The notes beneath the pieces were generated by a model. It was not told the DNA's origin. It did not search any database and saw only the letters and a program-made list of their open reading frames with translations. From positions 62,001-126,000 of the forward strand of contig NZ_LQRT01000013.1 in NCBI RefSeq assembly GCF_001632745.1: a stretch of DNA of 64,000 nucleotides. Reading direction: 5' to 3'. The position numbers were made by a program, and so were the translations under genes. Shown one piece after another: positions 13,054 through 62,032 of the stretch. The DNA comes from Aquimarina aggregata. Lineage in GTDB: Bacteria > Bacteroidota > Bacteroidia > Flavobacteriales > Flavobacteriaceae. Every line of letters starts with the position of its first letter. Within the stretch, counting starts at the first letter, position 1.

Positions 13054-13164
13054 ATCTTAAAACAATTAAAACAATCATTCTTTATTTCAAGAAAATGTCA
13101 CAAATATTGATTTATAAAAGGTAATATCGAGACTTAGATCTTATATGAAAGGGTATTTTTCCTA

Positions 13165-13199
13165 TAAAAAATGCCCTTCATACGAAGGGCATTTTTATA
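13165..13199 (-). terminator. Rho-independent terminator of the SPFH/Arc operon
   Basis: An 11-bp perfect stem (AAATGCCCTTC, ATAC loop, GAAGGGCATTT) with runs of T on both sides lies just downstream of the minus-strand Arc-like gene. It could also work in the other direction. Confidence 0.8.
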
Positions 13200-13208
13200 T
13201 GTAAATCT

Positions 13209-16243: not shown

Positions 16244-16255
16244 AATAAAAAACGA

Positions 16256-16428
16256 TTGCCAACAACATATATGCGATCATAGCAACTAAGTGATGAATCG
16301 AATGGTTGTTGTATTTTTGGTAAGGGCAATGATTGAAAAATGAAAAAAAACACAACAAACAATGCGCAAATTTATCGATCGCTAGGTAACATTTTGCTCT
16401 GTCATGACATATATGTTATTACCTTAGG
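16256..16428 (+). repeat. Palindromic cassette-type repeat, copy R1
   Basis: The ends AACAACATATATG (16261-16273) and CATATATGTTATT (16408-16420) are inverted repeats with one mismatch, and inner parts also pair (GGTTGTTGTATTTTT with AAAAAAAACACAACAAAC). It shares CTAAGTGATGAATCGAATGG, GTATTTTTGGTAA and GTAACATTTT with the copy at 54948-55114. It lies just after the small pseudogene and just before a hypothetical gene. Confidence 0.75.
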
Positions 16429-16462
16429 TATAATTAAAAAAACCAAATACTTTTAAAACTGC

Positions 16463-17077
16463 ATGATAGTTTATATTTCAGGAACTTACCAAATCTCAAT
16501 CCACTCATACAGACCGAAAGAAATTAAATGTTATAACTGTAACGCTTCCAGCCAAATAATAGTCGAAAAAAAGGTATCGGTTTATCATTTGATGTACATT
16601 CCTATTTCTCCATATAAAACTAAAAACATATTCACATGTACATCGTGTAATAACGAATTTGAGCCAAAAAATTTAAAACCTGAAAACAAAACTTATTATA
16701 AGAACTTTAAATCAAAGAAATGGATTCCAATTTGGCTATTTAGTGGGGTAATAATAATCCTATTCGGAATTGGATATTTTGCTGTTAATCAAATAAAAAA
16801 AAATGAAGAAAAGTTAAGTAAATTAACCAACGGAGATCAAACACAAATAATACAATATGAAACTGATAATGGAAATTACACAACACTAAGAACTATTAAA
16901 ATCACTTCAGACTTTGTTTGGTTGAATTATAATGAATATGAAATTGAAAAGTATGATTTCATATACCAAATAGGAGGTGAAGGAAATTACTCAACTGATA
17001 CCGTAAAGGTTGACATTAAAATAATTAAAGAATTATTTAAACAAGGAAAGGTCAAAAAAATTTATCCTATTAAATAA
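16463..17077 (+). CDS. Hypothetical zinc-ribbon membrane protein
   Basis: A 204-residue protein with two CxxC pairs in the N-terminal part (CYNCN near residue 24 and CTSCN near 58), which fits a zinc ribbon, then one membrane helix at about residues 92-111 (IPIWLFSGVIIILFGIGYF), and an ~90-residue C-terminal domain. The arrangement suggests a cytoplasmic zinc ribbon anchored in the membrane. I do not recognise the C-terminal part. The gene is preceded by palindromic repeat R1 and followed by a small membrane protein gene, in an island of accessory type. Confidence 0.6.
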   Translation: MIVYISGTYQISIHSYRPKEIKCYNCNASSQIIVEKKVSVYHLMYIPISPYKTKNIFTCTSCNNEFEPKNLKPENKTYYKNFKSKKWIPIWLFSGVIIILFGIGYFAVNQIKKNEEKLSKLTNGDQTQIIQYETDNGNYTTLRTIKITSDFVWLNYNEYEIEKYDFIYQIGGEGNYSTDTVKVDIKIIKELFKQGKVKKIYPIK

Positions 17078-17335: not shown

Positions 17336-17349
17336 AACGATTTATTATC

Positions 17350-17435
17350 ATGACATATGTGATCACAGTTGACTAATGATTGATCGAATGGTTCTTGTAT
17401 ATTGTATGGACAGAAAAAAACTTACAATCACAAAT
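17350..17435 (+). repeat. Palindromic cassette-type repeat, partial copy R2
   Basis: TATGTGATCACAG and GATCGAATGGTTCTTGTAT match the left half of copies R1, R5 and R7. The right half is missing; sequence similarity ends before the 35-bp direct repeat at 17474. The copy begins just after the stop codon of the small membrane protein gene. Confidence 0.6.
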
Positions 17436-33707: not shown

Positions 33708-35276
33708 ATGAAAAAAATTAACACTTCAAAAAGCAAGTTTATAACTGCTAATTGCTTGCTCTTTATACTCTGGATAGCAAGTACATTATATGTTCATGCA
33801 CAAACCAATTATAGTAGCAGTACTCGTAAACCTGGCAACGTAGGTTATATAAAAAATTCAGGAGGAGAAGGACAGTACAGAAATGCAGCTGGAAGAGTCG
33901 TTATTTTTAATCCAGATGGTTCCAGAACAACTAATGAGAATTTTTATGTATCATATACTAACAATTGGTGGCCGAATGTAAAATTCGAAGTACAACGAGA
34001 AGGTGGTGCAGGCACCAGAAACGGTATGTTCATGGATACTGGTCACCTATATCTCATAGGAGATTGGGACAATAATTCTAATAGTGAAAATATCATTTTT
34101 GGGTTCAATAGCAATCTAAGATCCAGAGTAAGCGAAAAAATGCGTCTTACGCAAAATGGTTTCTTAGCCCTTGGTACTACAACTCCAAAGGGAATGCTTC
34201 ATGTAAATGGAGATACTTATTCCAAAGGACATGTTTATCTGTATGCGTATGAAGGGGATGGTAATTCAGGAACAGCCTATCTACAGGCCAGAGACAAATC
34301 AAATAGTTCAAATATAGGACTTCAGTTAAGAACTCAAAATGTGGGTAATATTGTTAACGCACTTAAAATTAACCCTAATGGTAATGTGGGTATAGGAACT
34401 ACTGATCCTGAACAAAAACTGCATGTTGATGGAAACACAAAAATCAATGGAAGCATACAAACGAACGGAAATACATATTCAAAGGGAAACCTTTCTTTAT
34501 TTGCCAATGAAGGTGAAAACCAATCAGGAACTGCATATTTACAAGCTAAAGATGAATCTGGTCGTTCTTCAATAGGGTTTCAATTAAGAAGTCAAAATAC
34601 CGGTAATTTCATCAATGCACTTAAAATCAATCCTAACGGCAATATTGGAGTTGGTACTACCGAGCCTACTGAAAAACTAGAAATTCAAGGAAATATAAAA
34701 ACCTCAACCGGAAGTGCTATTCTTCTTCAAAAGGGAGTTTTGTCTGATCAAGAAGGTCTTTATCTAATTGGAGATCGCGACAATACCTCAGAAAATGAAG
34801 ATATCATCTTTGGTTTTGATGGTAACTCTCGCGAATCCATACAAGAAAAAATGAGGTTAACAGATGAGGGCTATTTAGGTATTGGTACCAATACCCCTTC
34901 AGAAAAGCTAGAAGTACTAGGGAAAATTAAAGCCAGCTCTTTTGTGACTTCTCTACAAAGTTTTCCCGATTACGTTTTTGAAAAAGATTACAAATTACAA
35001 CCGCTTATCGAGGTTAAAAAATATGTCGAAGCACATCATCATTTACCTGGTATGCCTTCAGAAAAAGAGGTTCTAAAAAACGGTTTAGACATCAGAGAAA
35101 TTACTGTTTTATCTGTTGAGAAAATTGAAGAGCTATTCCTGCATACCATAACACAACAAACAATCATAGAAGAACAAAAAGAAATTACTGCCAAACAACA
35201 ATCATTTATGATATCACAACAAGAAATAATTAAAAAACTAGAACAGCGCATAGCTAATTTAGAAAGATCAAGATAA
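33708..35276 (+). CDS. GIGT-module surface protein, paralogue 1
   Basis: A 522-residue protein with an N-terminal signal (ILWIASTLYVHAQ), then beta-rich modules that each end in a GIGT/GVGTT turn and HVNG or EIQG (phage tail-fibre-like). The modules run: MRLTQNG unit, HVYLYAYEGDGN unit, LSLFANEGENQ unit, then ILLQKGVLSDQEGLYLIGDRDN unit. The C-terminal domain begins SFVTSLQSFPDYVF, continues with HHLPGMPSEKEV and ends in a coiled coil (EKIEELFLH to IANLERSR). It has no T9SS domain. First of four tandem paralogues, all plus strand. It shares a 128-nt identical block with paralogue 3. Confidence 0.8.
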   Translation: MKKINTSKSKFITANCLLFILWIASTLYVHAQTNYSSSTRKPGNVGYIKNSGGEGQYRNAAGRVVIFNPDGSRTTNENFYVSYTNNWWPNVKFEVQREGGAGTRNGMFMDTGHLYLIGDWDNNSNSENIIFGFNSNLRSRVSEKMRLTQNGFLALGTTTPKGMLHVNGDTYSKGHVYLYAYEGDGNSGTAYLQARDKSNSSNIGLQLRTQNVGNIVNALKINPNGNVGIGTTDPEQKLHVDGNTKINGSIQTNGNTYSKGNLSLFANEGENQSGTAYLQAKDESGRSSIGFQLRSQNTGNFINALKINPNGNIGVGTTEPTEKLEIQGNIKTSTGSAILLQKGVLSDQEGLYLIGDRDNTSENEDIIFGFDGNSRESIQEKMRLTDEGYLGIGTNTPSEKLEVLGKIKASSFVTSLQSFPDYVFEKDYKLQPLIEVKKYVEAHHHLPGMPSEKEVLKNGLDIREITVLSVEKIEELFLHTITQQTIIEEQKEITAKQQSFMISQQEIIKKLEQRIANLERSR

Positions 35277-35280
35277 TACT

Positions 35281-36858
35281 ATGCTAACCCTATATAACAA
35301 CTACACAATCATGAAAAACTTAATGAAGAAAAAAACTAGTACTCTAAAAAAAAAGTATTACATCATTCTAAAGACCACATTAATAATACTATTCTGGACA
35401 CTTACACTACAGACAGGCCATGCCCAATACAGCAATAGTAGTAACACTAACCCCGCCACACACAAAATAGGATCTAATAGAGCTAGAGTAATTTTTTTTA
35501 ATGATGATGAATCGAATCACAAAAATGAAAACTTCTATGTCTCCTTTGGAAAACAAAATAATTGGTGGAATAACGTAAAACTAGAAGTTCAACGTGAAGG
35601 AGGTGTTAGCGCCCGTAATGGAATGTTTATGGACCGAAGCCACCTGTATTTAGTAGCCGATTGGGATAATATAGGAAATCGAGAAGATATTGTTTTTGGA
35701 TTTAATGGAAATAGAAGATCTACTATTCAAGAAAAAATGCGATTAACAGATCAAGGAAGACTAGGTATTGGAACTTCGAATCCAAAAGGAAAACTGCACC
35801 TTAAACATTCTAGCACTTCGTATGACGGATCAGGATTTATATTAGAAAACAATACCTCTTCGTCTGTTTATAACATTATAAATTCTAATAACAATCTTTT
35901 TATTGGTTTTAATAATAATCGTAACAGCAACTTTCCTCAAAATTCGTATCAACATCGCTTCTTTATAAAATCTAATGGAAATATTGGTATTGGTACCACA
36001 GATCCAAAAGAAAAACTTCATGTTAATGGTAACTCTTTTCTGAAAGGAAATTTTCAATTATTTGCAAATGAAGGAGAAAATAAATCTGGAACGGCTTATA
36101 TACAAGGAAGGGATAAATCTGGTAGTTCGAATATTGGACTTCAACTACGAAGTCAAAAAATGGGTAATATTATTAATGCCCTTAAAATTAATCCAGATGG
36201 AAATATAGGAGTTGGTACAACTGCACCTAGTGAAAAACTAGAAATACATGGTAATCTTAAAACGGGAATAGAACATAATATACTGTTGCAACAAGGAACC
36301 CTATCTGATAATAAAGGATTGTATCTTATTGGGGATCGAGATAATACCTCAGAAAGCGAAGATATCATTTTTGGATTTGACGGTAACTCTCGTGAATCTA
36401 TACAAGAAAAAATGAGATTAACAGATGAAGGGTATTTAGGTATCGGAACCAATGTCCCCACTGAAAAACTAGAAGTATTAGGTAAAATCAAAGCCAGTTC
36501 TTTTGTTACTTCTCTACAAAGTTTCCCCGATTATGTATTTGATGAAGATTACAAATTACAACCCCTTACCGAGATAAAAAAGTATGTTGAAATGCACCAG
36601 CATTTACCGGGAATGCCTTCTGAAAAAGAAATTATAAAAAAAGGACTTGATCTCAAAGAAATTACTGTTATATCTGTTGAGAAAATTGAAGAATTATATC
36701 TCTATACTATAAAACAACAAGAAGTAATTAAAGAACAAGAAGAAATCAATACCAAACTACAGTTACTCATGAGTTTTCAGCAAGAAATGTCTCACAAACA
36801 AGAGTTAATGATCAAAAAACTCGAACACCGAATAGTACAATTAGAAAAAACTAAATAA
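35281..36858 (+). CDS. GIGT-module surface protein, paralogue 2
   Basis: A protein of up to 525 residues; the start at M11 (MKNLMKKK, at 35311) gives a more usual signal region, ending TLQTGHAQ. Modules: a NGMFMDRSHLYLVADWDN unit, a HSSTSYDGSGFILENN unit shared with paralogue 3, an FQLFANEGENK unit, then the shared YLIGDRDNTSESEDIIFGFDG unit. The C-terminal SFPDYVF domain and coiled coil are present. It starts 4 bases after the stop of paralogue 1, so it is in the same transcript. Confidence 0.8.
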   Translation: MLTLYNNYTIMKNLMKKKTSTLKKKYYIILKTTLIILFWTLTLQTGHAQYSNSSNTNPATHKIGSNRARVIFFNDDESNHKNENFYVSFGKQNNWWNNVKLEVQREGGVSARNGMFMDRSHLYLVADWDNIGNREDIVFGFNGNRRSTIQEKMRLTDQGRLGIGTSNPKGKLHLKHSSTSYDGSGFILENNTSSSVYNIINSNNNLFIGFNNNRNSNFPQNSYQHRFFIKSNGNIGIGTTDPKEKLHVNGNSFLKGNFQLFANEGENKSGTAYIQGRDKSGSSNIGLQLRSQKMGNIINALKINPDGNIGVGTTAPSEKLEIHGNLKTGIEHNILLQQGTLSDNKGLYLIGDRDNTSESEDIIFGFDGNSRESIQEKMRLTDEGYLGIGTNVPTEKLEVLGKIKASSFVTSLQSFPDYVFDEDYKLQPLTEIKKYVEMHQHLPGMPSEKEIIKKGLDLKEITVISVEKIEELYLYTIKQQEVIKEQEEINTKLQLLMSFQQEMSHKQELMIKKLEHRIVQLEKTK

Positions 36859-36897
36859 AAGATACTCAATTGCTTTTAAAATTTTAAAAACAACATT

Positions 36898-38385
36898 ATG
36901 AAACACACACTTTTTTTATCAAAGTGCATTTTAAAGGATAAAGTAGGGGTTGTAATATTGATTCATATACTTATTTCTACATTTAGTTTATCCGCACAAA
37001 TTGGGCCCATTGGGCCCATAAACCCACCCAGTAATGGAATCACCATACTTAATAGTTCTAATAAAGGTATGGTAAATCACTTTCATAAAGACAGTCGCGG
37101 TGGTGGTGAAGATTTTTATTTTTCATCTGGATCTGGAAATTGGAGAAACAGAGTTCAATTTAGAATCCACACGAATGGTACTGTAAGTACAACAAGTGGT
37201 ATGTATACAGATCACGGAAATCTATATCTAGTGGCAGATTGGGATAATTCTCATAATAATGAAGATATTATTTTTGGTTTTGATAGCTATCAAATCAACA
37301 ACGTTAAAGAGAAAATGCGTCTCACTGATGAAGGAAGGTTAGGTATCGGAACTGTTAACCCTAAAGGAATGCTTCATATTAAGCATACTAGTCCTTCATA
37401 TGACGGTGCGGGATTTATATTAGAAAACCATACTTCTTCTTCTACTTATAATATTATAAATTCTAATAACAATCTTTTTATTGGTTATAATAATAATCCT
37501 AATGCTAACTATCCTCAAAGCTCATATAAAGATCGTTTCTATATAAAATCTAATGGAAATATTGGTATTGGTACCATAAATCCAAAAGGAAAACTTCATG
37601 TAAATGGAGATACCTATACAAGCGGAAAACTGTATGTCGACAATAATACTTATGTAAAAGGAAATGTATCCTTATTTGCAAACGAAGGAGAAAACCAATC
37701 AGGAACAGCCTATCTACAGGCAAAAGATAAATCAGGAAACTCTAATATTGGGTTTCAATTTAGAACCCAAAAAGCTGGTAATTTCATCAATACTCTTAAA
37801 ATTAATCCTAATGGCAATGTAGGGATTGGAACAACTGAACCTACAGAAAAACTAGAAATTCAAGGAAATATCAAGATTTCAGATGGTAACAATATTCTTT
37901 TACAAAAGGGTACCTTATCTGATCAAGAAGGATTATATCTGATCGGAGATCGCGACAATACCTCAGAAAACGAAGATATTATTTTTGGGTTTGATGGAAA
38001 CTCTCGTGAGTCGATACAAGAAAAAATGAGATTAACAGATGAAGGATATTTAGGAATCGGAACCAATGTACCAACAGAAAAACTGGAAGTCTTGGGCAAA
38101 ATTAAAGCTAGTTCTTTTGTGACTTCTCTACAAAGTTTTCCCGATTACGTTTTTGAAAAAGATTACAAATTACAACCGCTTATCGAGGTTAAAAAATATG
38201 TCGAAGCACATCATCATTTACCTGGTATGCCTTCAGAAAACAATGTCCTAAAAAATGGTTTGGACATCAAAGATATCAGTGTAAAATCAGTAGAAAAAAT
38301 CGAAGAGCTCTTTCTTTATGTGATCCAACAACAAGAAATTATTCAAAATTTAAAACAACGAATTGAACAATTAGAAAAACCTTAA
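36898..38385 (+). CDS. GIGT-module surface protein, paralogue 3
   Basis: A 495-residue member with signal peptide (LIHILISTFSLSAQ) and a Gly-Pro-Ile rich start of the mature part (IGPIGPINPP). It shares with paralogue 2 the HTSPSYDGAGFILENH unit and with all four the IIFGFDGNSRES unit. The C-terminal domain (SFPDYVFEKDYKLQPLIEVKKYV) is identical at DNA level over 128 nt with that of paralogue 1, pointing to gene conversion. The C-terminus is shorter than in paralogues 1 and 2. Confidence 0.8.
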   Translation: MKHTLFLSKCILKDKVGVVILIHILISTFSLSAQIGPIGPINPPSNGITILNSSNKGMVNHFHKDSRGGGEDFYFSSGSGNWRNRVQFRIHTNGTVSTTSGMYTDHGNLYLVADWDNSHNNEDIIFGFDSYQINNVKEKMRLTDEGRLGIGTVNPKGMLHIKHTSPSYDGAGFILENHTSSSTYNIINSNNNLFIGYNNNPNANYPQSSYKDRFYIKSNGNIGIGTINPKGKLHVNGDTYTSGKLYVDNNTYVKGNVSLFANEGENQSGTAYLQAKDKSGNSNIGFQFRTQKAGNFINTLKINPNGNVGIGTTEPTEKLEIQGNIKISDGNNILLQKGTLSDQEGLYLIGDRDNTSENEDIIFGFDGNSRESIQEKMRLTDEGYLGIGTNVPTEKLEVLGKIKASSFVTSLQSFPDYVFEKDYKLQPLIEVKKYVEAHHHLPGMPSENNVLKNGLDIKDISVKSVEKIEELFLYVIQQQEIIQNLKQRIEQLEKP

Positions 38386-38418
38386 TAAAACTCAATAAAC
38401 CTATTTAAAAATTAAACA

Positions 38419-39837
38419 ATGAAAAGCACAATTATTATTCATGCTATTTTGATTGCAACTTTGTTTAGTTCAAGTCAATTAACAGCACAAACCAGCACTA
38501 ATAAACCAAGATCAAGTGCTTCAATTTTTGGTAGAAATAATGCCATTGTAATGCATATGAACGATGATGGTTCAAGTCATAAAGATGAAGAATTTTTTGT
38601 CTCTCGTGGTAAAGGAAGTTGGTATAACAACATACGTTTTAGAGTTCACGCCAACGGCACAATCAGTACGATGAATGGTATACATGCTGATGCAGGTAAT
38701 CTCTACCTAATTGCTGACTGGGATAATTCTCGAAATACTGAAGACATCATTTTTGGATTTGATGGCTATCAAAAAGAGAGAATTAAAGAAAAAATGCGAT
38801 TAACCGATGAAGGTAGATTAGGAATAGGCACTTCTAACCCCAAAGGGAAGCTACATGTAACAGGCAATATCTATGCAAAAGGACATGTTTATTTGCATGC
38901 CTACGAAGGAGATGGAAAATCTGGAACCGCCTATCTACAAGCTCGAGACAAATCTAACGATTCTAAAATAGGCCTTCAATTACGCAGTAAAAATGGTAGC
39001 AGCATTATCAATGCTCTTAAAATTAACCCAAATGGTAATGTGGGTATCGGAACAACAGATCCCACAGAAAAACTTCATGTAAATGGAAATACCTATGCAA
39101 AAGGAAATGTTCAGTTATTTGCAAATGAAGGAGAAAACCAATCAGGAACCGCCTATCTACAGGCAAAAGATGGATCTGGAACCTCTAATATTGGACTTCA
39201 GTTTAGAACCCAAAAAGAAGGTAATTTTATCAATGCTTTTAAAATTGATCCCACTGGTAATATCGGGGTTGGAATTACCTCACCATCCGAAAAACTAGAC
39301 GTACAAGGGAATATTACCACAGCTTCTGGTCACAATATACTTCTTAAACAAGGAACACTATCTGACGATACAGGGTTATATCTTATAGGAGATCGTGATG
39401 GTAACTCGGAAAGCGAGGATATCATTTTTGGTTTTGATGGAAATTCTCGTGAATCTATTCAAGAAAAAATGAGATTAACGGATGAAGGATATTTAGGAAT
39501 CGGAACCAGTGTACCAACAGAAAAACTGGAAGTTTTGGGTAAAATTAAAGCCAGTTCTTTTGTTACATCGCTTCAAAGTTTTCCAGATTATGTTTTTGAC
39601 CCTGACTATAAAAAACGTTCGCTTTCTTCTGTGGAATCCTATGTTACTACACATAGGCATCTTCCAAACATGCCCAGTGAAAAAGAAATCGTAGAAAAAG
39701 GAATGAATATTCCTAAAATAGTTACCAAGTCTGTAGAAAATATAGAAGAAATATACCTACACCTCATCGAACTAGAAAAGAGAATAAAAACACTAGAAGC
39801 TGAAAATACAATACTAAAAAGGAAACAACAGAAATAA
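38419..39837 (+). CDS. GIGT-module surface protein, paralogue 4
   Basis: A 472-residue member with signal peptide (LIATLFSSSQLTAQ). Like paralogue 1 it has the HVYLHAYEGDGKSGTAYLQARDKS unit rather than the YDGSGF unit of 2 and 3. The C-terminal domain is the most diverged of the four (FDPDYKKRSLSSVESYV, HLPNMPSEKEIVEKGM) and ends in a coiled coil (RIKTLEAENTILKRKQQK). The 3' neighbour is the large T9SS protein 37 bases away. Confidence 0.8.
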   Translation: MKSTIIIHAILIATLFSSSQLTAQTSTNKPRSSASIFGRNNAIVMHMNDDGSSHKDEEFFVSRGKGSWYNNIRFRVHANGTISTMNGIHADAGNLYLIADWDNSRNTEDIIFGFDGYQKERIKEKMRLTDEGRLGIGTSNPKGKLHVTGNIYAKGHVYLHAYEGDGKSGTAYLQARDKSNDSKIGLQLRSKNGSSIINALKINPNGNVGIGTTDPTEKLHVNGNTYAKGNVQLFANEGENQSGTAYLQAKDGSGTSNIGLQFRTQKEGNFINAFKIDPTGNIGVGITSPSEKLDVQGNITTASGHNILLKQGTLSDDTGLYLIGDRDGNSESEDIIFGFDGNSRESIQEKMRLTDEGYLGIGTSVPTEKLEVLGKIKASSFVTSLQSFPDYVFDPDYKKRSLSSVESYVTTHRHLPNMPSEKEIVEKGMNIPKIVTKSVENIEEIYLHLIELEKRIKTLEAENTILKRKQQK

Positions 39838-39874
39838 ACCACCTATTTACTTATTTCCTAAAAAACAACAACTT

Positions 39875-42800
39875 ATGAAAAATATATTTATATCATGTCG
39901 ATATCATGTGCTAATAGTTCTCTTTGCACTATCAAACCTATATTTTGGAGCAGCACAAGAATTACGAATACCTTCTTCAGGAGAACTTCCTGAAGGAGCT
40001 TATATTAAAGGTCTCTATCACTTACAGGCCGATGATCCTGCTGGTCAATATATTAAAGAATCTAACGGAATATTAAGTTATGACACTTTTAATACTGCCG
40101 CTAGCGAGTTTTATTTTTGGGGTATAGAAAACGCCTTTAAAGGAACGTTTCAACTCTATAGCGCACGAATTGGAAGTGAAGGTAAACCCTTAAGTATTAC
40201 CAATGACGGTACTACTCGATTTGCTACTACCGTAGATGAAGATAGATCTCACCTGCTATTACAAATGTATCCTGAAGGTCCTACGAATGACAGCAATAAC
40301 CCCAAAGCATCAAAAGCTATTATAGTTACAGAATCTCTTACCGAATATAGTGATACAAATTGTAAATGTAATGTGCTACAAATAGAAGGAAATTCCAAAT
40401 TTAAAATCATTCGTTCTGAAAATGATAGTTTTAATGAATACCGCCCTATTGTTTTTGAAAAAGCGAGTATTAATAATACTGGTATTATTAGCGAAATAAA
40501 CGATCAAACGATTATCACACAACCCGAAACGCAACACTTTCAGAACTTTGTCTCTACTAATTTTTATGTCAAAAATTTTGCAGAAGATGATTTTAAAGTA
40601 AACATCACGCCAGGTACTCAAGGAACAATAGGTTTTTTGCATTATACCCATCATCATTATACTAAAAATGTTTTTGCCAATGCAAAACCTCAAATTGGTA
40701 TTAAAATAATAGACGACAAAATTTCATTATTTTATCTTTCTGGTAATCAACCGCTTCCTTTTAGTCAAGAAGGAATTGGACATGAAATACTTACAGATTT
40801 CGTATTTGGACAAGACATCACCTTTGGTTTTAGCGGTCAAGATGTATTCGTAGCATCTCAAGGGGATAAGGTTTTTGAACTAAAAGGTGCGGTTCCCACA
40901 GAGTTTTTCTTCAATCAATCAATTACCCGAACCGCTCGCGCAATCGCAAGACTTAAAAAAGGGGAAATTACTATAGCTTCTACCCCAAAGAATTTTCTTA
41001 TAGGATCGGCAAATGACAAAGGGGATAACGATGGTTCAAATTTTATCTCTACAAATGCTTATTTACCCTATAATCAAGGAAAAGCATTTGTTAATACTTT
41101 TAACTGGCAACAGACCCAATGGGATGTAAGGTATATTGGCGATAATGGCTTAGTAGAAGAACGCGTATTTAGCCCATTTTATTCTAACGAAATAGATTTT
41201 GCAGGTATATCAGCCAAGTATAGTCCTAATGGTAGTTATCTAGGAGGAGAAGACTTTTCTGCGGTAGAAGGTTGGGAATTGATAAAATCTAACTTAGGAT
41301 ACAATGCAGATGGTACAAAGAGAAATCAAGCTTCAGTATATCCATATGCCATACTCTATGATAGGATTAGTGGAACTCTTAGAGTATTTATGTATACTAA
41401 AAATGAAAGCATTGCCAACCAGTTAACAATTAGTCTTAAAATGGACAGGGGACTTCCTGGGAATCAATCTAATGACCCAAGTTATACTCCAAAACTATGG
41501 GGTGGTCTACAACAGTTTGAGGCACTTAATAATTCTGAAAGCTCTGCTTATAGCCGTTCACTACCGTATCTAGCCAGCCCAGGGCGTAGCTGGTACTTTG
41601 CAGATTTTGTAATGGAGTATGACCCTTGTATAGATTTTTTTGAATCTAGTATTAAAATTAATGTTACAAAAACTACTCAAGGTGACTTAACCATGATTGG
41701 TCGTTTAGAAGGAGGGGCAATACCCGCAGGAACCCAAGAATATGATGATTGGCAAAATAACAAAGATAAGTTCTTACTTGGAGCCATGGATAACGATTTT
41801 GGAGAATTAGAAAACACATTGGGCGATGTAACCTTTAATCAATATGAAAACTTTAATGCCAAAGAGTTTACCGAAGAAATTACCGGAACTTTAGAAGGTA
41901 AAGAAATCCAAGCATGGGAAAAAGAAGCTGCACGTTTAGAATGGGAGGGCAAAAATCAAATTGCAAATGCTGAAATTGCCGACGGAAGTTTTAAAATAGC
42001 TGAGGGCGTTGCTAAAATAGCTGAAGGCGCAGCTAAAATGAATTCTAATCCATTAAAGTTTTTGGGGTTTAAAATTGGCGAAGGTGGAGCGAAAATCGCT
42101 CAAGGCGCAGCAAAAATCGGACAAGGTGGAGCTACTGTTGCAAAAGGAAGTTCTAGAAAAAAAGTAGCCTATGCTAGAAAACTATACTATGATAACATCA
42201 AAGACAAGACAAAACGAAGTGATCAAAATATTAAGCTATCCATCCCCCCTCCTCGTCCGCAAGCTGTATTTGGTGAAATTGCATTAAAAGGTACTTTATC
42301 TATTGAAACTACATTAATAAATGCCGAATTTATCGCTACACCAGGAGCAAAAAATTCAGATAACACTCCAGAATGGTATAATAATGGTACCAGAGGTGCT
42401 GCTCCTCTATACAATAAGGATATGGGGAAATTTTCCTTGCTTAAATCTCCTAAATTTGGCATCAAAATAATACATGACAAAAGTTTTGGGTATAGTGCTT
42501 ATTTAAAAACCAAAGAAAAGCCTTACATCGTTCATAATGCACAAGCACTTGGTAAGCTAGATGATATTTTTAAAATTGCAGTACATGTAGAAACTTTTAA
42601 TCGCACCGGGAAAAGAATCAGTGGATTTACAAGTAATGGACACACGAACTTTTTTGGTAACGATATCAATAATCCTTTACCTGGTGATATGGATATTACA
42701 TCATTAATTGATTGGGAGCAAATAGAAAAAAATATAAGAGCAAATGGTGATATCAATACAGAACTATCATCATGGATTCGCGTATCTTATGAAATATGGT

Positions 42801-43393
42801 CTTTAACCTTAAGTAATATTAAATCTCGTGATTTAGCAAGAGTATTTGCTAATGGGGACAATTATTATAGAGGAGAAAGTGAGTTTCACTTCAGTAAAGA
42901 AGAAGCTGCATCTTTATATCATTTTGAAAACAGAGCAAAACAGCTCGCTAATGCTCAATTTAATGAATATACTTTTGTAGATAATTCTGATTGGGGTTTA
43001 CAGTATAACTTATACAATACGCAATCTGATTTTGAAGATTTAATGCACCAGTATTGTGCAAGTTTAAATTCAAACGCAAAACGTAGCAACCCTGCTCCAG
43101 AAGATCTACCAGAAACAATACCACTCTTAAAAACGCAAGAAGACCTTTCTGTATACCCGAACCCGAGTAAACTAGTTACAAATTTTAATCTAAATACTCA
43201 TGAACAAGGAAAAGTTTTAATTTCATTATTAGATATGTCTGGTAAGGAATTATTAAAAACTGACGACTTTTTGAATGGAAGAGATCTATTAACAGGAACT
43301 ATTAGTATTCAAGCATTAATTCCTGGTATCTATATTCTTAAAGTAATATTGCCAAGTGGAAAGCGAATTACTAGAAAGATTATAAAAAATTAA
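39875..43393 (+). CDS. Large T9SS type A surface protein with Ala/Gly repeat segment
   Basis: A 1172-residue protein with signal peptide (SNLYFGAAQ), a first part with trefoil-like strands (YIKGLYHLQADDPAGQYI), a long central region, and a T9SS type A C-terminal domain from about residue 1090 (LSVYPNPSKLVTNF, ISLLDMSGKELL, PGIYILKVILPSGKRITRKI). Around residues 695-760 there is a heptad-like segment (KIAEGVAKIAEGAAKM, later KIGEGGAKIAQGAAK, VAKGSS), a possible flexible or coiled spacer. It is expected on the cell surface. Its gene follows the four GIGT paralogues and precedes a TPR regulator. Function not known. Confidence 0.85.
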   Translation: MKNIFISCRYHVLIVLFALSNLYFGAAQELRIPSSGELPEGAYIKGLYHLQADDPAGQYIKESNGILSYDTFNTAASEFYFWGIENAFKGTFQLYSARIGSEGKPLSITNDGTTRFATTVDEDRSHLLLQMYPEGPTNDSNNPKASKAIIVTESLTEYSDTNCKCNVLQIEGNSKFKIIRSENDSFNEYRPIVFEKASINNTGIISEINDQTIITQPETQHFQNFVSTNFYVKNFAEDDFKVNITPGTQGTIGFLHYTHHHYTKNVFANAKPQIGIKIIDDKISLFYLSGNQPLPFSQEGIGHEILTDFVFGQDITFGFSGQDVFVASQGDKVFELKGAVPTEFFFNQSITRTARAIARLKKGEITIASTPKNFLIGSANDKGDNDGSNFISTNAYLPYNQGKAFVNTFNWQQTQWDVRYIGDNGLVEERVFSPFYSNEIDFAGISAKYSPNGSYLGGEDFSAVEGWELIKSNLGYNADGTKRNQASVYPYAILYDRISGTLRVFMYTKNESIANQLTISLKMDRGLPGNQSNDPSYTPKLWGGLQQFEALNNSESSAYSRSLPYLASPGRSWYFADFVMEYDPCIDFFESSIKINVTKTTQGDLTMIGRLEGGAIPAGTQEYDDWQNNKDKFLLGAMDNDFGELENTLGDVTFNQYENFNAKEFTEEITGTLEGKEIQAWEKEAARLEWEGKNQIANAEIADGSFKIAEGVAKIAEGAAKMNSNPLKFLGFKIGEGGAKIAQGAAKIGQGGATVAKGSSRKKVAYARKLYYDNIKDKTKRSDQNIKLSIPPPRPQAVFGEIALKGTLSIETTLINAEFIATPGAKNSDNTPEWYNNGTRGAAPLYNKDMGKFSLLKSPKFGIKIIHDKSFGYSAYLKTKEKPYIVHNAQALGKLDDIFKIAVHVETFNRTGKRISGFTSNGHTNFFGNDINNPLPGDMDITSLIDWEQIEKNIRANGDINTELSSWIRVSYEIWSLTLSNIKSRDLARVFANGDNYYRGESEFHFSKEEAASLYHFENRAKQLANAQFNEYTFVDNSDWGLQYNLYNTQSDFEDLMHQYCASLNSNAKRSNPAPEDLPETIPLLKTQEDLSVYPNPSKLVTNFNLNTHEQGKVLISLLDMSGKELLKTDDFLNGRDLLTGTISIQALIPGIYILKVILPSGKRITRKIIKN

Positions 43394-51943: not shown

Positions 51944-51965
51944 GAATCTAAAATATAGTGATAAC

Positions 51966-52010
51966 ATACACATATATCTAGATTATCTAGATATATGTGT
52001 ATTTTTATAT
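51966..52010 (+). terminator. Long perfect hairpin terminator after the M3 gene
   Basis: ATACACATATATCTAGAT, one base, then its exact reverse complement (18-bp arms, 51966-51983 and 51985-52002) followed by TTTTATATAT. It ends the peptidase transcript and stands at the left edge of the cassette-like region. Confidence 0.8.
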
Positions 52011-52076
52011 ATAATAAATATGTAGGCTAGTAAACATTGTGAATTATTAGTAGTAATTGATTCTTATTGAAAAATA

Positions 52077-52601
52077 ATGGATATTAAAACGATACGAGAA
52101 AATTATAAAAAAATGTCAATAGAAGAATTGACTAAATTGGTTGCTGAAATAAAAACTCTAAGACCAGAAGCTATTCTATTCCTACAACAAGAATTAATAT
52201 CCAGAGAAGAAACCCAAAAAGCCTTAAATATTACTAATTATTTACTTTCAATAAAGTATCACATTAGTGAAAGTGTTTTATTTGATTATATAACCAAACT
52301 TAAGAAAAAAGGATTTTCGGAAACCGAAATAGATAAAGATTTAGAAGAGAAACACGGAATTGATAAAAACTATTCTCAACTCATAAAGTCAAACCTGAAT
52401 TCAAAAGGGAAAGAGAATATAATCATTGGGTTGGCTATGATAATTATTCCTTTAGTTTTTGGAATAATTTTGATTTCTCTAAATGCCTTTATTGGAATAT
52501 TCCCATTACTGTTAATTGGAATCGGAATCTGGAGATTAAATAAAGGTCTATTACAAAGAAAAGTCAATAACAAAATAAAAACTACTTCCCACACTATATA
52601 A
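52077..52601 (+). CDS. Hypothetical membrane protein of the cassette region
   Basis: A 174-residue protein whose first ~120 residues are charged and helical (EELTKLVAEIKTLRPEA, LKKKGFSETEIDKDLEEKHGI) and whose C-terminal part has two hydrophobic helices (IIIGLAMIIIPLVFGIILISL and IGIFPLLLIGIGIW). The last nine residues are KIKTTSHTI, and the final codons and stop lie inside palindromic repeat R3. The unrelated gene ending at 54312 has a near-identical end. I do not recognise the family. Confidence 0.6.
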   Translation: MDIKTIRENYKKMSIEELTKLVAEIKTLRPEAILFLQQELISREETQKALNITNYLLSIKYHISESVLFDYITKLKKKGFSETEIDKDLEEKHGIDKNYSQLIKSNLNSKGKENIIIGLAMIIIPLVFGIILISLNAFIGIFPLLLIGIGIWRLNKGLLQRKVNNKIKTTSHTI

Positions 52602-52656
52602 CAAAACATAGTTACCCTTCGGGACAACAACGTTTGTTATATTTAACGTTGAGGCA
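52572..52656 (+). repeat. Palindromic cassette-type repeat, copy R3
   Basis: Starts AAAATAAAAACTACT, then CACTATATAACAAAA; TATAACAAA (52597-52605) is the exact reverse complement of TTTGTTATA (52633-52641), and the copy ends TATATTTAACGTTGAGGC. It overlaps the end of the gene at 52077-52601 and supplies its stop codon; the next gene starts 12 bases after it. Confidence 0.75.
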
Positions 52657-52668
52657 AATTAAAACGAA

Positions 52669-53436
52669 ATGAAATTACCCAAGTTAATCTTTATAGTTTT
52701 TTTTTCTTTAACCTGCCTGGGTTGTAAATCACAAACATCGGTTTCTCGAGTAGAAATAGTTGAGCCAACTATTGAGCAAGAAGCAACATCAATTTGGAGA
52801 ACAATCAATGATATTACTTTTTTTGAAAAACAAGGTTATAAAATTAATCTACCAAAGGATTCGTTAATCGACTCATTGATAACAAAATCAAAGAATGGAA
52901 CTTTTGGAAATGAAGACTTTAATACTATTTACACCCTTGTAGAAACAAAAATATTCGACAAAAAAAATTATGAACCAGCGATACAAAAAGTTACGAATCA
53001 AACAGAACTTATTAGTAGTCTAGTTTATGAAATAGATACTTCTAAACACCAATGGCATTGGAACTTCAATATGTTTGATAAATATAGAGTTATATTCACT
53101 TTATTTGGAACAGGAGGAAGTTACGACCCTGATGAAGGAACTATCACTTTATTGACGAATATGAAAGGAGATTTCATGAATTATAAAAACCCTGTGAACA
53201 CAATAATTCATGAAATCACACATATGGGAATGGAATATTCAATTGTACGGAAATACAATCTCACTCACGGATTGAAAGAAAGAATTGTAGACACTTTTAT
53301 TCATATTATGTTTAAGGAACAATTACCCGAATACAAAATCCAAAATATGGGAGATACTAAAATAGATAAGTATTTTAATCAGAAAAAAGATATCGATTCT
53401 CTAAACACTACATTATCAAAATTTTTGAATAAATAA
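52669..53436 (+). CDS. Lipoprotein with HExxH motif (putative metallopeptidase)
   Basis: A 255-residue protein with a lipoprotein signal (FFSLTCLGCKS; lipobox Cys near residue 19). HEITH at residues 181-185 fits the zinc site of metallopeptidases, in a hydrophobic helix (NTIIHEITHMGMEYS). Otherwise I do not recognise it. It lies between repeats R3 and R4, both within a few bases of its ends, as one unit of the cassette-like array. Confidence 0.6.
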   Translation: MKLPKLIFIVFFSLTCLGCKSQTSVSRVEIVEPTIEQEATSIWRTINDITFFEKQGYKINLPKDSLIDSLITKSKNGTFGNEDFNTIYTLVETKIFDKKNYEPAIQKVTNQTELISSLVYEIDTSKHQWHWNFNMFDKYRVIFTLFGTGGSYDPDEGTITLLTNMKGDFMNYKNPVNTIIHEITHMGMEYSIVRKYNLTHGLKERIVDTFIHIMFKEQLPEYKIQNMGDTKIDKYFNQKKDIDSLNTTLSKFLNK

Positions 53437-53437
53437 C

Positions 53438-53574
53438 TTGCCGTAACAACATGCATAAAACATAACTAGTAAGTGCTAAACTGAAAGTAAAAGTTAGCAG
53501 CCAATGTCCAGAAAAAACCGAAAAACAAAGTAACATTTTGCTCGGCTACGAGACATATATTAAACGTTAGTGCT
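53438..53574 (+). repeat. Palindromic cassette-type repeat, copy R4
   Basis: Starts TTGCCGTAACAACATGCAT two bases after the stop of the HExxH lipoprotein gene and ends GTAACATTTTGCTCGGCTA, CGAGACATATATTAAACGTTAG, 12 bases before the next gene. The right half closely matches that of R1 and R6. Confidence 0.75.
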
Positions 53575-53586
53575 AATTACTCAAAA

Positions 53587-54312
53587 ATGAAAATACCTAA
53601 AATTAAAAGAATAATTGACAGACGTATTCTAATCAACTACCAAGTTGACAAGGAAGTTTTAGAAAATTATTTACCGAAGCCATTTAAACCTAAACTGGTA
53701 AATGGAAAAGGTGTTGCTGGAATATGTTTAATCAGACTAAAAGAAATCAGACCTAAAGGGTTACCAAAACAAATCGGAATTTCCTCTGAGAACGGAGCTC
53801 ATAGAATTGCAGTTGAATGGAATGAAAATGGAAAATTAAACGAAGGTGTTTATATTCCGAGAAGAGATACTTCTTCGAAATTGAACTCTTTAGCTGGAGG
53901 AACTATGTTTCCTGGAATTCATCATCTTGCTGAATTTACGGTTAATGAATCAGATAGGAATTATAATGTGGCATTTATTAGTGATGATGGAACCTCTTTA
54001 TCAATCGAGGCTCGTGAGACTGACAAATGGAATGAAGAAAGTGTATTTGAAAATCTAAATTGTGTCTCAGATTTTTTCGAGAATGGTTCAATTGGTTATT
54101 CTCCTGGCAAAAATGAATTTGACGGATTAAAACTCGAGGCATATAACTGGAAAGTATCTCTTTTGGAGGTAAAAGAGGTGCAATCAAGTTTTTTTGAGAA
54201 TGAAGACATTTTTCCAAAAGGTTCTGTGAAATTTGATAATGCTCTTTTGATGAGAGATATTGAACACGAATGGATTGCATTGGAAAAAATAAAAACTACT
54301 AACACTATATAA
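53587..54312 (+). CDS. DUF2071 family protein
   Basis: A 241-residue protein with MKIPKIKRIIDRRILINYQVDKEVLENYLPKPF and IHHLAEFTV. The pattern of the first 40 residues is the DUF2071 start, an acetoacetate-decarboxylase-like fold whose members are of unknown function. The C-terminus is KIKTTNTI with the stop inside repeat R5, almost the same as that of the unrelated gene ending at 52601. Unit of the cassette-like array. Confidence 0.8.
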   Translation: MKIPKIKRIIDRRILINYQVDKEVLENYLPKPFKPKLVNGKGVAGICLIRLKEIRPKGLPKQIGISSENGAHRIAVEWNENGKLNEGVYIPRRDTSSKLNSLAGGTMFPGIHHLAEFTVNESDRNYNVAFISDDGTSLSIEARETDKWNEESVFENLNCVSDFFENGSIGYSPGKNEFDGLKLEAYNWKVSLLEVKEVQSSFFENEDIFPKGSVKFDNALLMRDIEHEWIALEKIKTTNTI

Positions 54313-54364
54313 CAAAAAATAGCCGCACTATAGGTCAGTAACATTCGTTATATTTAACGTTTGG
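54286..54364 (+). repeat. Palindromic cassette-type repeat, copy R5
   Basis: Starts AAAATAAAAACTACTAACAC, then TATATAACAAAA, and ends TCGTTATATTTAACGTTTGG, 7 bases before the next start codon. It shares its first ~15 bases and the ACTATATAACAAA block with R3, and supplies the stop codon of the DUF2071 gene. Confidence 0.75.
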
Positions 54365-54371
54365 TACAATT

Positions 54372-54974
54372 ATGACAAATACTATTTTCCATAACGAAGA
54401 ATTTGAAATAAATAGAATTTCTATACCTGAATTCAAATTAAAGAATGGGAATCTTATTAGGATTTATGTCCCAAATTTTGACAGGAAATATCTGCCTTTA
54501 GGTTTTGATTTAACTATTGAATTAATAAAACGTTTTCAAAATCAAAAACCTGATTTTCCATGGGCAAAAAACTATCAACAAGGGACATTAATGGAATTAT
54601 TAAGTCCTTTGACTGTAAATAAATACCTGATCAATAAAATGAGGATTGACAAATTGATAGCTCAAAAAATTGTCGAAGAGATCGGAATTAATTCAAAAGA
54701 CAAATTAGGAAATTTAAGTTTCACAAATAGAAAAGCGCTAATAATAAAAGCACTGTTTAACAAAAACAATAGTATAATTTTGGATTATTACGGAGTAGGT
54801 GCTAACGGAATTGGATTTTTGGAAAGTTTAGTAAATTCCGAAATAAAAAATGGTAAATCTGCCATCACATTTGATAGATTAGAATTTAAAGCTGATAAAG
54901 AACCGTTTCAAAATATTATCCCAATAGAAATAAAAAACTGTCCCCTTCACGATAATTGTGATCACAGCAGCTAA
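54372..54974 (+). CDS. Hypothetical protein of the cassette region (weak ABC-like resemblance)
   Basis: A 200-residue protein without signal or membrane segment. The second half has FTNRKALIIKALFNKNNSIILDYYGVGANGIGFLESLVNSEIKNGKSAITFD, in which an LDYYG segment sits like the Walker B/D-loop of an ABC ATPase and NGKSAI like the following strand. I see no Walker A (GxxxxGK[ST]) in the first half, so it is at best a degenerate relative. The last ~15 residues (KNCPLHDNCDHSS) are encoded by repeat R6, so the natural end may lie before them. Function not known. Confidence 0.5.
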   Translation: MTNTIFHNEEFEINRISIPEFKLKNGNLIRIYVPNFDRKYLPLGFDLTIELIKRFQNQKPDFPWAKNYQQGTLMELLSPLTVNKYLINKMRIDKLIAQKIVEEIGINSKDKLGNLSFTNRKALIIKALFNKNNSIILDYYGVGANGIGFLESLVNSEIKNGKSAITFDRLEFKADKEPFQNIIPIEIKNCPLHDNCDHSS

Positions 54975-55114
54975 GTGATGAATCGAATGGCTATTGTATT
55001 TTTGGTAAAGCGCAATGCTTGCAAGACTGAAAAAAACAGCAACTAATACGCAGATATCTTCAATGATTAGGTAACATTTTTCCTCACTACGACACAAATG
55101 TTAAACATTGATAT
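54948..55114 (+). repeat. Palindromic cassette-type repeat, copy R6
   Basis: Contains ATTGTGATCACAGCAGCTAA, GTGATGAATCGAATGG, GTATTTTTGGTAA, ATTAGGTAACATTTT and the right end AAATGTTAAACATTG. Over ~165 bases it is clearly related to R1, 38 kb away. It overlaps the 3' end of the preceding gene and lies 19 bases before the next start codon. Confidence 0.8.
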
Positions 55115-55132
55115 TAATTAACCAAAAAATAA

Positions 55133-55750
55133 ATGAATAAAGTCTGGAAACTTTCGGAGTCAAAATCAGATAAATTAATTTTGATAAAAAACCAAACTAT
55201 TTATAAAGGAAACCCTGGAAAGGAAAAAATTAACAAATTCTCTCTGGATGTTGAAACTTATTCAAATAATGAAATTGAAAAGGAATTATTTGGTATACCT
55301 TATCATTACATTAAAAAAGTAATAAATCAAAAAGGAATCAAACATATAAAAGTACTTTTCGGAAATGACTCTGAAGAAGAACTCATCATAGAAGACGAAA
55401 AAATCAAAAATGAAATTTTTGAATTCTTAAAAAAAGATATTATAGAATTAAAATACAAATTGGAATTACCAAGTTTTTTCAATTATTGTAAAGCACAGAT
55501 TTTTGCGATACTTATTTTAACTGGAATTTTTATTTGGAGTATGTATTACGCCATCGAAATTGATAAGGGCACTGTTTTTGAATTGCGTGGTGGAGGTGGA
55601 CGACTTGGAATAGGTGGACTTGTATTCATCCTTGGAAATCTTGGCAAGATGAAACTAATAATTGGATATTCCGCTTTTATAGGACTTGCACTATTATCCA
55701 TGTTTCGCAAATTAAAATCTAGAACGGAAATAGAAGTTTTATATCGATAA
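55133..55750 (+). CDS. Hypothetical membrane protein of the cassette region
   Basis: A 205-residue protein. The first ~120 residues are soluble and look like a PH-like strand-rich domain (KLILIKNQTIYKGNPG, IKVLFGNDSEEELIIEDEK), and two hydrophobic helices follow near residues 124-144 (AQIFAILILTGIFIWSMYYAI) and 160-195, with a Gly-rich loop (RGGGGRLGIGGLVFILG). I do not recognise it. Flanked closely by R6 and R7. Confidence 0.6.
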   Translation: MNKVWKLSESKSDKLILIKNQTIYKGNPGKEKINKFSLDVETYSNNEIEKELFGIPYHYIKKVINQKGIKHIKVLFGNDSEEELIIEDEKIKNEIFEFLKKDIIELKYKLELPSFFNYCKAQIFAILILTGIFIWSMYYAIEIDKGTVFELRGGGGRLGIGGLVFILGNLGKMKLIIGYSAFIGLALLSMFRKLKSRTEIEVLYR

Positions 55751-55753
55751 AAA

Positions 55754-55889
55754 CTAACACCAATAACACAATTGTGATCATAGCAGCTAAGCAATACATC
55801 GAATAGCTACTATATTTGATTATGCACAATGCTTGCAAAAAGTAAGATAACATTCTGCCCTATTACGATACATATATTATACGTTGCGC
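55754..55889 (+). repeat. Palindromic cassette-type repeat, copy R7
   Basis: Starts CTAACACCAATAACACAATT four bases after the stop of the preceding gene, contains GTGATCATAGCAGCTAAG, ACATCGAATAGCTA, CAATGCTTGCAA and ATAACATTCTGCCC, and ends CATATATTATACGTTGCGC. It closes the run of four genes that have repeats on both sides. Confidence 0.75.
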
Positions 55890-56004
55890 TTCAGTATAAT
55901 AAACCGCTAACTAAGACTAAAATTCTTTAGAAAAATTAGACAAAACTTACTTTTTAGAGTAAAATCGAAAATATTTTAAACCTATTCTTGGAGAAATTAT
56001 TTTT

Positions 56005-56012
56005 TACTTTTG
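56005..56012 (+). promoter_or_regulatory. Candidate -7 element of the LytTR gene
   Basis: TACTTTTG matches TAnnTTTG, 28 bases before the ATG at 56040. The nearest upstream TTG is 14 bases away, shorter than usual. Confidence 0.35.
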
Positions 56013-56039
56013 AATATTACAAAAAAAAGTTTCTAATTT

Positions 56040-56876
56040 ATGAGCACTAAAGAGCCGTCCAAGAATACATTAAAAACCGTATGGCGTTCATTTGCTAGTA
56101 GTTCTGTATGGCGTTGGTTTCAGAAAGCAATTATATTGATTATTTTCTCGTTAGTCGCAAATCATTTAGCAGCGAGTGATAATTTTCTTGATAGTGCAAC
56201 GTATAGATTTCCTACTGTAGGCTTTCTTTTTACTATTGTTTTTTTTATTGTCGTGGGAATCATTGCAGAACTTAATTTTAAATTTTATAAGAAAAAGTAC
56301 TTCTCTAAGAAAGTAGAAATTGCTACTATCATAAGGTTTATGGCTTCAACTTTAGGATACTTTACAATAATCTATATTCCTGTAAATATTATTTTAGAGA
56401 TAGTTTTAGATGGGGAAATACAGTTCTATTATACATTAATTGGTTTAGTAATTTCGTTATTAATATGTTTTATTCTCATAGGTCTATTGTATGCTAAAGA
56501 TCTACATAATTTATATAAGGTATCTATAAAAGATGCTGAAATTATTATTGACAGCGGTGCGAAAGTAACAAAGCTTACTTACGAAAATATTGCATGTTTT
56601 TATAGCGCAAACAAAATTGTATATACGGTTCAAAATAATGGCACCACAATTAACACCGATTTTACATTAAATGAACTCGAAGAAACTATAAACGATCAAT
56701 TATTTTTTAGGGCCAATCGGCAAATTATAATCCACAAAGATACCGTAGACCTAATTGAAAAAATTGAAAATGGCAAGTTGCGTATTCAGTTAAAATCTTT
56801 CATTAAAAACGATGCAATTTCAGAAATCAACATCAGTCGTTACAAACGAAAAGCATTTATGGATTGGTTTCAATAA
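56040..56876 (+). CDS. Membrane-anchored LytTR family transcription regulator
   Basis: A 278-residue protein with four membrane helices in the first ~165 residues (AIILIIFSLVANHL, FLFTIVFFIVVGIIAEL, TLGYFTIIYIPVNIILEIVL, LIGLVISLLICFILIGLLY) and a C-terminal LytTR domain from about residue 180 (KLTYENIACFYSANKIVYTV, FRANRQIIIHKDTVDLIEKIENGKLRI). Membrane sensing with direct DNA binding is inferred, without a separate kinase. The adjacent CPBP protease gene has a 21-bp-phased repeat in its promoter region that fits a LytTR site. Confidence 0.9.
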   Translation: MSTKEPSKNTLKTVWRSFASSSVWRWFQKAIILIIFSLVANHLAASDNFLDSATYRFPTVGFLFTIVFFIVVGIIAELNFKFYKKKYFSKKVEIATIIRFMASTLGYFTIIYIPVNIILEIVLDGEIQFYYTLIGLVISLLICFILIGLLYAKDLHNLYKVSIKDAEIIIDSGAKVTKLTYENIACFYSANKIVYTVQNNGTTINTDFTLNELEETINDQLFFRANRQIIIHKDTVDLIEKIENGKLRIQLKSFIKNDAISEINISRYKRKAFMDWFQ

Positions 56877-61849: not shown

Positions 61850-61878
61850 ATGTAATGATGAATAAGTGAAATTACCAT

Positions 61879-62032
61879 TGCTAACACTTTATATGTGATC
61901 ATAGCAATTCCGTGTTTAATCAAATAGTTGTTTTATTTTTGGTAAGCCGTAATCCCCACAAAAAGTAAAAATTAGCAATCAACTCTGAGAAAATATTAAT
62001 TTGTTCTGACTAGAATCCGTACATCATGTTTT
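61879..62032 (+). repeat. Palindromic cassette-type repeat, copy R9
   Basis: Starts TGCTAACACTTTATATGTGA, then TCATAGCAATT, AATCAAATAGTTG and ATTTTTGGTAAGC, matching the left halves of R1, R2, R6 and R7. The right half is less conserved and ends CCGTACATCATGTTTT. It begins 29 bases after the AsmA-like stop and ends about 100 bases before the next gene. Confidence 0.65.

Follow-up and report, generated by a model that had tools for sequence, protein, structure and literature searches.

The DNA analysed here, called the window below, is a stretch of 64,000 nucleotides from the genome of Aquimarina aggregata (6.19 Mb in 60 contigs) and belongs to its 741-kb contig C13. Between a gene for an M3-family peptidase and a resident gene for a LytTR-domain protein (56040..56876), it contains a row of five gene cassettes (52046-55885), each composed of a gene and an attC-like site behind it, with all features on the + strand. 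The left edge of cassette 1 is a degenerate R' box, ATT-AGTAGT-AATT (52046..52058), complementary at four of six positions to the R'' box of the cassette. The same box, as GTT-AGTAGT-AATT, precedes an 80% homologue of the cassette 1 gene in genome G016, and on this evidence AGTAGT replaced GTGAAT as the left border. The cassette 1 gene (52077..52601) encodes 174 amino acids with a hydrophobic C-terminal part (judged by eye), gives no match in Pfam or NCBIfam, and has its last codons in attC-like site 1 (R3; 52590..52650, 61 nt), whose R'' box is ACTTCC-CAC, with a degenerate core, and whose R' box is GTT-GAGGCA-AATT. Cassette 2 consists of a gene for 255 amino acids (52669..53436, no Pfam or NCBIfam match) and site 2 (53445..53568, 124 nt), with R'' TGCCGT-AAC, complementary at 4/6 positions to the upstream GAGGCA, and R' GTT-AGTGCT-AATT. 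The third gene (53587..54312, 241 aa) codes for a DUF2071 protein (PF09844) with the site-encoded tail TTNTI; its site 3 (R5; 54301..54361, 61 nt) has the R' box GTT-TGGTAC-AATT, and its R'' resembles the expected AGCACT-AAC minus 3 nt. Cassette 4 carries a gene for 200 amino acids (54372..54974) with the site-encoded tail CPLHDNCDHSS, followed by site 4 (R6; 54946..55109, 164 nt) of a long type with degenerate core. The gene of cassette 5 (55133..55750, 205 aa) is without Pfam or NCBIfam match, and its long-type site 5 (55762..55885) forms the right border of the array.

The two 61-nt repeats, sites 1 and 3, are 71% alike over 96 nt, and the longer repeat type stands behind other genes of the same row. 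With site 4 as query, 31 matching places were found in the genome, itself included. Further long-type copies lie near small genes at 16255-16440, 17340-17410 and 61865-62010 of the window, two of them apparently truncated, and may be isolated or decayed cassettes; a small gene near such copies (16463-17077) has a sub-threshold zinc-ribbon match. An Rfam scan of the window at gathering thresholds gave no match, and a plasmid search with 52077-55750 gave none either. A separate region (33708-43393) contains genes with long direct repeats (families D1-D8), and its NIGIGTTDPKEKLHVNG-like units resemble those of tail-fibre-like or cell-surface proteins.

The genes of the row run into their sites. 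An earlier note on this DNA had stated that the 174-residue protein ends with KIKTTSHTI and the DUF2071 protein with KIKTTNTI, both genes reading AAAATAAAAACTACT..ACACTATATAA; translation of the open reading frames bears this out, and the right part of this stretch coincides with the left arm of both 61-nt repeats, whose cores are at 52590 and 54301. The repeat does encode the tails, but AAAATAAAA (KIK) is the DUF2071 gene's own and only the residues after it are repeat-derived, since copies without visible attC alongside also have KIK (KIKSP, KIKKTF). Similarly, the 200-aa reading frame enters R6 as had been claimed, but by nine codons counted from the core (54946), or about 12 with the outer box, rather than by about 15.

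That gene ends lie in repeats is more than chance, as it is found again, beside different repeat sequences, in homologues of all three genes and in the cassette counts given below. Comparison with homologues identifies the tails as site-encoded additions: the bodies are kept and the tails vary with the flank. The DUF2071 set comprised 20 of 24 matches (our own copy and 19 at 79-89% identity, one from another genus), leaving out two fragments and two copies of 22-23% identity. Most of the 20 share a body ending approximately EHEWIGLxKIK and then diverge together with the flank. Beside attC-like DNA the endings are KTTNTI, NY, NH, KCS, SLNTV and KTTPNKV; where no attC is visible by eye, they are SP, KTF, YNENLYI and others (SMKA, ENRTY). 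The sequence AAAATAAAAACTACTAACACTATATAA yields KIKTTNTI with its stop in the inner box, and with one extra A the stop moves into the core CTAAC and the ending is KIKNY or KIKNH. Relatives of the 200-aa protein continue after a common ..IKN with CTQHDICDHSS, CTQHDM, CS or YSLTS, each from its own site. In nine genomes with the 200-aa cassette (36 pairs), pairwise identity is 0.37 immediately before GTT, 0.77 in GTT-N6-AATT and 0.88 in the gene; the hexamer GGGTAC precedes the gene in five genomes, while the preceding site varies. A 63%-identical homologue of the 174-aa protein stops at RGNN, before the tail, though its flanks are cassette-like as well.

Long-type copies are concentrated on small contigs of the genome. 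On one of them, C19 (17.7 kb), all 25 non-overlapping reading frames of at least 60 amino acids are on the + strand, and 21 sites can be recognized, the complete ones 53-185 nt long and different in sequence. These sites share AAC at their left and GTT at their right end. Read as reverse complement, the six bases following GTT of one site recur before AAC of the next: 19 neighbouring pairs agree on average at 5.47 of 6 positions, 381 other pairs at 2.07, and R' and R'' within the same site at 2.55 (20 sites). In 20,000 permutations the observed sum was never attained. The sites were set by eye, mostly from their inner arms and after the link between boxes had been noticed, so this count is not blind; the right half of site S20 is missing, and S20-S21 was excluded as a pair. 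Such an inverted link is expected of an integron, where each inserted cassette brings along the bases that follow G^TT. Tn916-like elements carry coupling sequences as direct repeats; a coupling-sequence model, with N6 directly repeated, is ruled out here, as N6 is inverted. Among the cassette proteins of C19 (locus L040), seven of ten scanned have no Pfam match and the rest are DMP19-like, SMI1/KNR4 and beta-lactamase-family proteins; one cassette seems to hold two reading frames (12402-13351).

The signature is also found blind, without hand-set sites. In 20 loci, the motif CGTT-N6-N-ATT is followed within 4 kb downstream by the exact reverse complement of N6 joined to AAC in 68 of 125 cases, against 2 of 125 upstream; on the opposite strand of the same loci the numbers are 0 of 37 downstream and 2 upstream. 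Two defining traits of integrons are present, namely complementary R' and R'' boxes owned by the cassette, as in attC, and, on C19, an array of cassettes in one orientation. The strict R' heptamer GTTRRRY, on the other hand, occurs in only 22 of the 220 boxes of exact-signature cassettes. GTTR is found in 200 and C before GTT in 176 of them; the motif behind this set requires ATT or AAGC after N6, so that this part of the box is partly given by construction.

In 204 of these 220 cassettes a reading frame of at least 50 amino acids ends near the core; the other 16 have none of 50 aa there. The stop lies 2-16 nt before AAC in 132 of the 204, farther upstream in 36, at the core in 26 (in 22 as TAA of ..TAAC) and beyond it in 10, so that 36 stop at or beyond the core. 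The genes under study belong to the minority stopping beyond it. The earlier note had regarded the repeat edge as a ready-made 3' end, with genes attached to it at differing points. Our data do not support this: the repeat has the appearance of a recombination site that closes a cassette, usually no more than 16 nt from the gene's stop, and tails vary because the reading frame differs, not because the joining points do. The earlier reading was thus partly supported, being correct on the added tails and not on the nature of the repeat. This accounts for a practical trap: cassette genes can bear site-encoded tails that vary from species to species and may be of no importance to the protein.

Main arrays of this kind are headed by a tyrosine recombinase gene. 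The sole such gene of our genome encodes 375 amino acids on contig C2, which ends 163 nt past the stop codon. Of 56 related genomes, counting our own, 26 have a match at E ≤1e-60, and a scan of public genomes gave 79 recombinase loci, many from uncultured or MAG records, in Aquimarina, Lacinutrix, Winogradskyella, Algibacter, Flavivirga, Olleya, Psychroserpens, Gelidibacter, Mangrovimonas and other genera. When 395 genomes were sampled evenly across the phylum, 109 of them matched at the same threshold, not all of which need have integron heads. Of the 79 loci, 77 were used (L173 and L174 were left out), and 73 of these retain the 3' end of the integrase gene, four being without it; L100 has no attI candidate and 16 of the remaining 72 have too little DNA, which leaves 56. 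In these 56 an attI-like GTT lies 32-66 nt past the recombinase stop, mostly after a palindrome, and the site reads ATTGTT in 46 of the 73 loci. In a second blind test, predicting from the attI side alone, the reverse complement of the six bases after this GTT, followed by AAC, was found downstream in 45 of the 56 loci, where 1.17 would be expected from the hexamers of other loci; the exact match is missing in 11. A further defining trait of integrons, attI beside the integrase gene with insertion at GTT, is thus found here.

Looser conditions, admitting any GTT within 150 nt, were applied to the best 29 loci of the phylum sample outside our own genome, with integrases 35-63% identical; three of these loci were too short. 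The downstream side gave 18 of 26 (1.16 expected) and the other side of the gene 2 of 26 (0.6 expected). Loci of canonical IntI gave a weak signal in the same test, 5 of 15 downstream (1.5 expected) and 2 of 18 upstream (0.24 expected). The contig ends less than 200 nt past the integrase stop in 12 and less than 1 kb past it in 21 of the 73 loci (L096-L172); it seems that assemblies tend to break at cassette arrays, and this would make the arrays easier to miss.

The row in the window has decayed sites. Its boxes are complementary at 4/6 positions in four cassettes (boundaries set by hand), against a mean of 1.5 for cross pairs; 17% of unrelated C19 pairs reach 4/6. The DUF2071 cassette fits the signature only if a 3-nt deletion is assumed. 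No match to TIGR02249 or to the array-head integrase was found on contig C13. As judged from its sequence, the row is probably an old, decayed satellite array without integrase that has lost its mobility. Among the 16 closest loci of the LytTR gene (other matches, less than 50% identical, were left out), a similar right border at GTT upstream of the same gene is present in four, own included and one by eye only. No empty site was found among them, the peptidase gene being within 1.5 kb in 0 of the 16. DNA upstream of a shared promoter-proximal stretch occurs, as judged by eye, in several unrelated versions, some with attC remnants, and this region (window 51944-56039; L200-L214) is likely a hot spot where cassette DNA collects at a distance from the integrase.

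The array-head recombinase lacks the IntI-specific insertion (I2 region), with 18 residues between two matched parts where IntI4 has 61; the I2 helix is regarded as necessary for working on attC-type sites. Its score with TIGR02249 is 192.5, below the cut-off of 265, profile positions 183-238 being skipped; sub-cut-off matches to this profile are unspecific, as they occur in 14 of 14 control genomes. The definition of an integron calls for an IntI with this additional domain in its catalytic core, so the recombinase is not IntI by definition, though the layout is that of an integron. The best-scoring curated profile is the XerA-type NF040815 (220.2 bits, cut-off 220). With an AlphaFold model (mean pLDDT 80.7, pTM 0.50), the best Foldseek match was IntI4 (4.2e-17) with XerA next to it, and VIA placed XerA (Z 23.1, rmsd 16.3 over 248 residues) above IntI4 (Z 20.5, rmsd 11.3 over 258). 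An extra N-terminal domain of about 75 amino acids reaches pLDDT 90.1 when modelled alone; it has no Pfam family beyond noise and no Foldseek match at E 0.001. In VIA the archaeal XPB N-terminal domain came first (Z 6.6), with the HARP domain of SMARCAL1 at Z 4.2, weak values that indicate resemblance of fold only. The XPB N-terminal and HARP domains bind distorted or forked DNA, and our guess from the model would be that the N-terminal domain has a role in hairpin recognition.

Canonical IntI above the cut-off is present in 105 of the 395 phylum genomes, 104 outside the class of the window and one inside. In trees, IntI forms one group (100/100). The first tree suggested that IntI arose within the insertion-less group; holding the insertion-less rows together was not rejected (p-AU 0.468, in a tree from which 14 of 45 long, short or near-identical rows had been dropped), and the trees fit insertion-less enzymes as ancestors of IntI, as its sisters or as a mixture alike. 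In both trees the recombinase of locus L264 (genome G147) is placed beside canonical IntI (98/96 and 98/92), and its locus is positive under the looser attI conditions; it is a possible candidate intermediate.

Published attC sites have R'/R'' boxes, a G after AAC on the bottom strand, UCS and EHB, and lengths of 57-142 nt (PMC2727003). In circular form, 18 sites of C19 fold with a mean z of -4.05 relative to shuffles, and the bottom strand is predicted to be the more stable in 15 of them, by 2.1 kcal/mol on average. Between the outer and inner boxes, ten predicted folds leave a central spacer of 4/2 or 5/3 bases and five have a one-sided bulge (2-3/0) there, and three folds lack a clear R/L stem; an extra base lies in the L'' arm in nine folds and in the other arm in three.

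Taken together, these observations make it very probable that we are dealing with gene cassettes of integron type and that the repeats are their attC-like sites. Each cassette would consist of one gene, rarely two, with its site, and its circular form would bring the outer boxes into pairing. We infer that the array-head recombinase performs the reaction, inserting cassettes at the GTT of the attI-like palindrome behind its own stop codon; most likely, and by analogy with integrons, its substrate would be the folded bottom strand of the cassette attC, joined to attI. Cassettes may also end up elsewhere and decay, and this is how satellite arrays such as the one in the window would have arisen. 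After a small change of frame, a gene would read into its site and stop at the core TAA (..TAAC) or in the inner box (TATATAA). Such read-through would be easy because the site begins a few bases from the stops of most genes, whence tails are short and differ between species. What sequence comparison brings out is a cassette signature, a boundary at GTT, a position for attI, a potential for hairpins and swaps of tails; it argues for mobility of the cassettes and for the place of crossover, short of proving single-strand recombination or action without helpers.

A Xer-like enzyme might instead exchange both strands at the core GTT-N6-ATT, the inner palindrome being only a binding or terminator element. 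The recombinase is as close to XerA as to IntI in profile score and in VIA and has no I2 region, and the attI-like site is palindromic, which recalls the dif site; yet double-strand exchange gives no reason why the opposite end of the same cassette should preserve N6 in inverted form, and leaves the unequal central spacer and the extra base of many predicted folds unexplained. We consider it unlikely. Far less probable still is that the repeats are dispersed intergenic elements (REP-, BIME- or MITE-like, or terminators) that came to lie beside genes, with the tails as accidents of insertion, a view close to that of the earlier note. Copies apart from the array or truncated in appearance (16243, 17329, 61865) agree with such elements, and hairpin potential would suit a terminator as well. 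Dispersed repeats would not be expected, however, to differ in sequence and range from 53 to 185 nt while alternating in one array under a common cassette signature, to hold a fixed place behind an integrase gene, or to let gene and outer box move together as the preceding site changes.

The tails could also be selected parts of the proteins rather than by-products of the sites. KTTNTI does recur in two DUF2071 copies, a like tail is found in the 174-aa protein and its G016 homologue, and three relatives of the 200-aa protein have CDHSS in common; this recurrence, however, tracks the recurrence of the same type of site, and the tails of other homologues are unrelated and of other lengths, so that we regard selection of the tails as very improbable. 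Of the readings considered, cassettes with attC-like sites remain the one we prefer.

Integrons are already known from Bacteroidota (PMC8618304), and the survey with IntegronFinder 2.0 names one complete integron in Bacteroidetes proper, that of Salinibacter (PMC9024848). IntegronFinder is described as detecting integrases through a profile of the IntI-specific domain (PMC9668308), so a system without this domain would be missed. In the open-access papers searched we found no account of arrays of this kind in Flavobacteria; an earlier description, in preprints or subscription journals for instance, is possible. From the sequences, the layout of integrase, attI and array appears to extend over many genera of Flavobacteria and to other Bacteroidota, and would enlarge the pool of mobile genes considerably. 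How I2 and attC could have originated together has been presented as a chicken-and-egg paradox, with the question how each was selected without the other (PMC4792948). A recombinase without I2 at the head of attC-like arrays offers a natural test case for it. At somewhat less than even chances, we would suggest that Bacteroidota hold a broad integron-type branch in which I2-less enzymes act on folded attC, perhaps aided in Flavobacteria by the N-terminal domain. If true, these I2-less systems would either be working intermediates such as the paradox requires or represent a second, independent origin of the integron.

Among the closest known systems are chromosomal (sedentary) integrons, which possess IntI, attI and arrays of attC. 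Common to them and the arrays described here are an integrase gene next to attI, insertion at the GTT, cassettes of uniform orientation with foldable sites, R'/R'' boxes, an often unequal central spacer (predicted here), a frequent C before GTT and a similar size of sites (53-185 nt on C19, 57-142 nt in PMC2727003). The arrays described here differ in that their recombinase has no IntI insertion and carries the additional N-terminal domain, that R' begins with GTTR and pairs beyond the heptamer rather than fitting GTTRRRY, and that the integrase gene points toward its array. This last feature is shared by the integrons of Treponema, whose integrase is transcribed toward attI and in the direction of the cassettes; these are, however, described with intI (PMC3607928), unlike the flavobacterial enzyme without the IntI-specific part. 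The array of the window, with five attC-like sites and no such integrase on its contig, is like a CALIN, a cluster of attC sites without integrase, although formal CALIN calls rest on the attC model of IntegronFinder (PMC9024848) and the window sites were set by hand. With XerA, XerC and XerD the recombinase shares the catalytic core and the best-scoring curated profile, and it differs from them in its extra N-terminal domain and in the linkage of its gene to attI and cassettes. As described in PMC4792948, integration of CTXphi by XerCD involves neither a dedicated integrase nor a cassette array, unlike the flavobacterial system; in CTXphi integration an I2-less recombinase takes part in a reaction similar to cassette recombination, on a folded phage site, as would the flavobacterial enzyme on folded attC. 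Because XerCD acts on that folded site, action of an I2-less enzyme on folded DNA has a precedent (PMC4792948).
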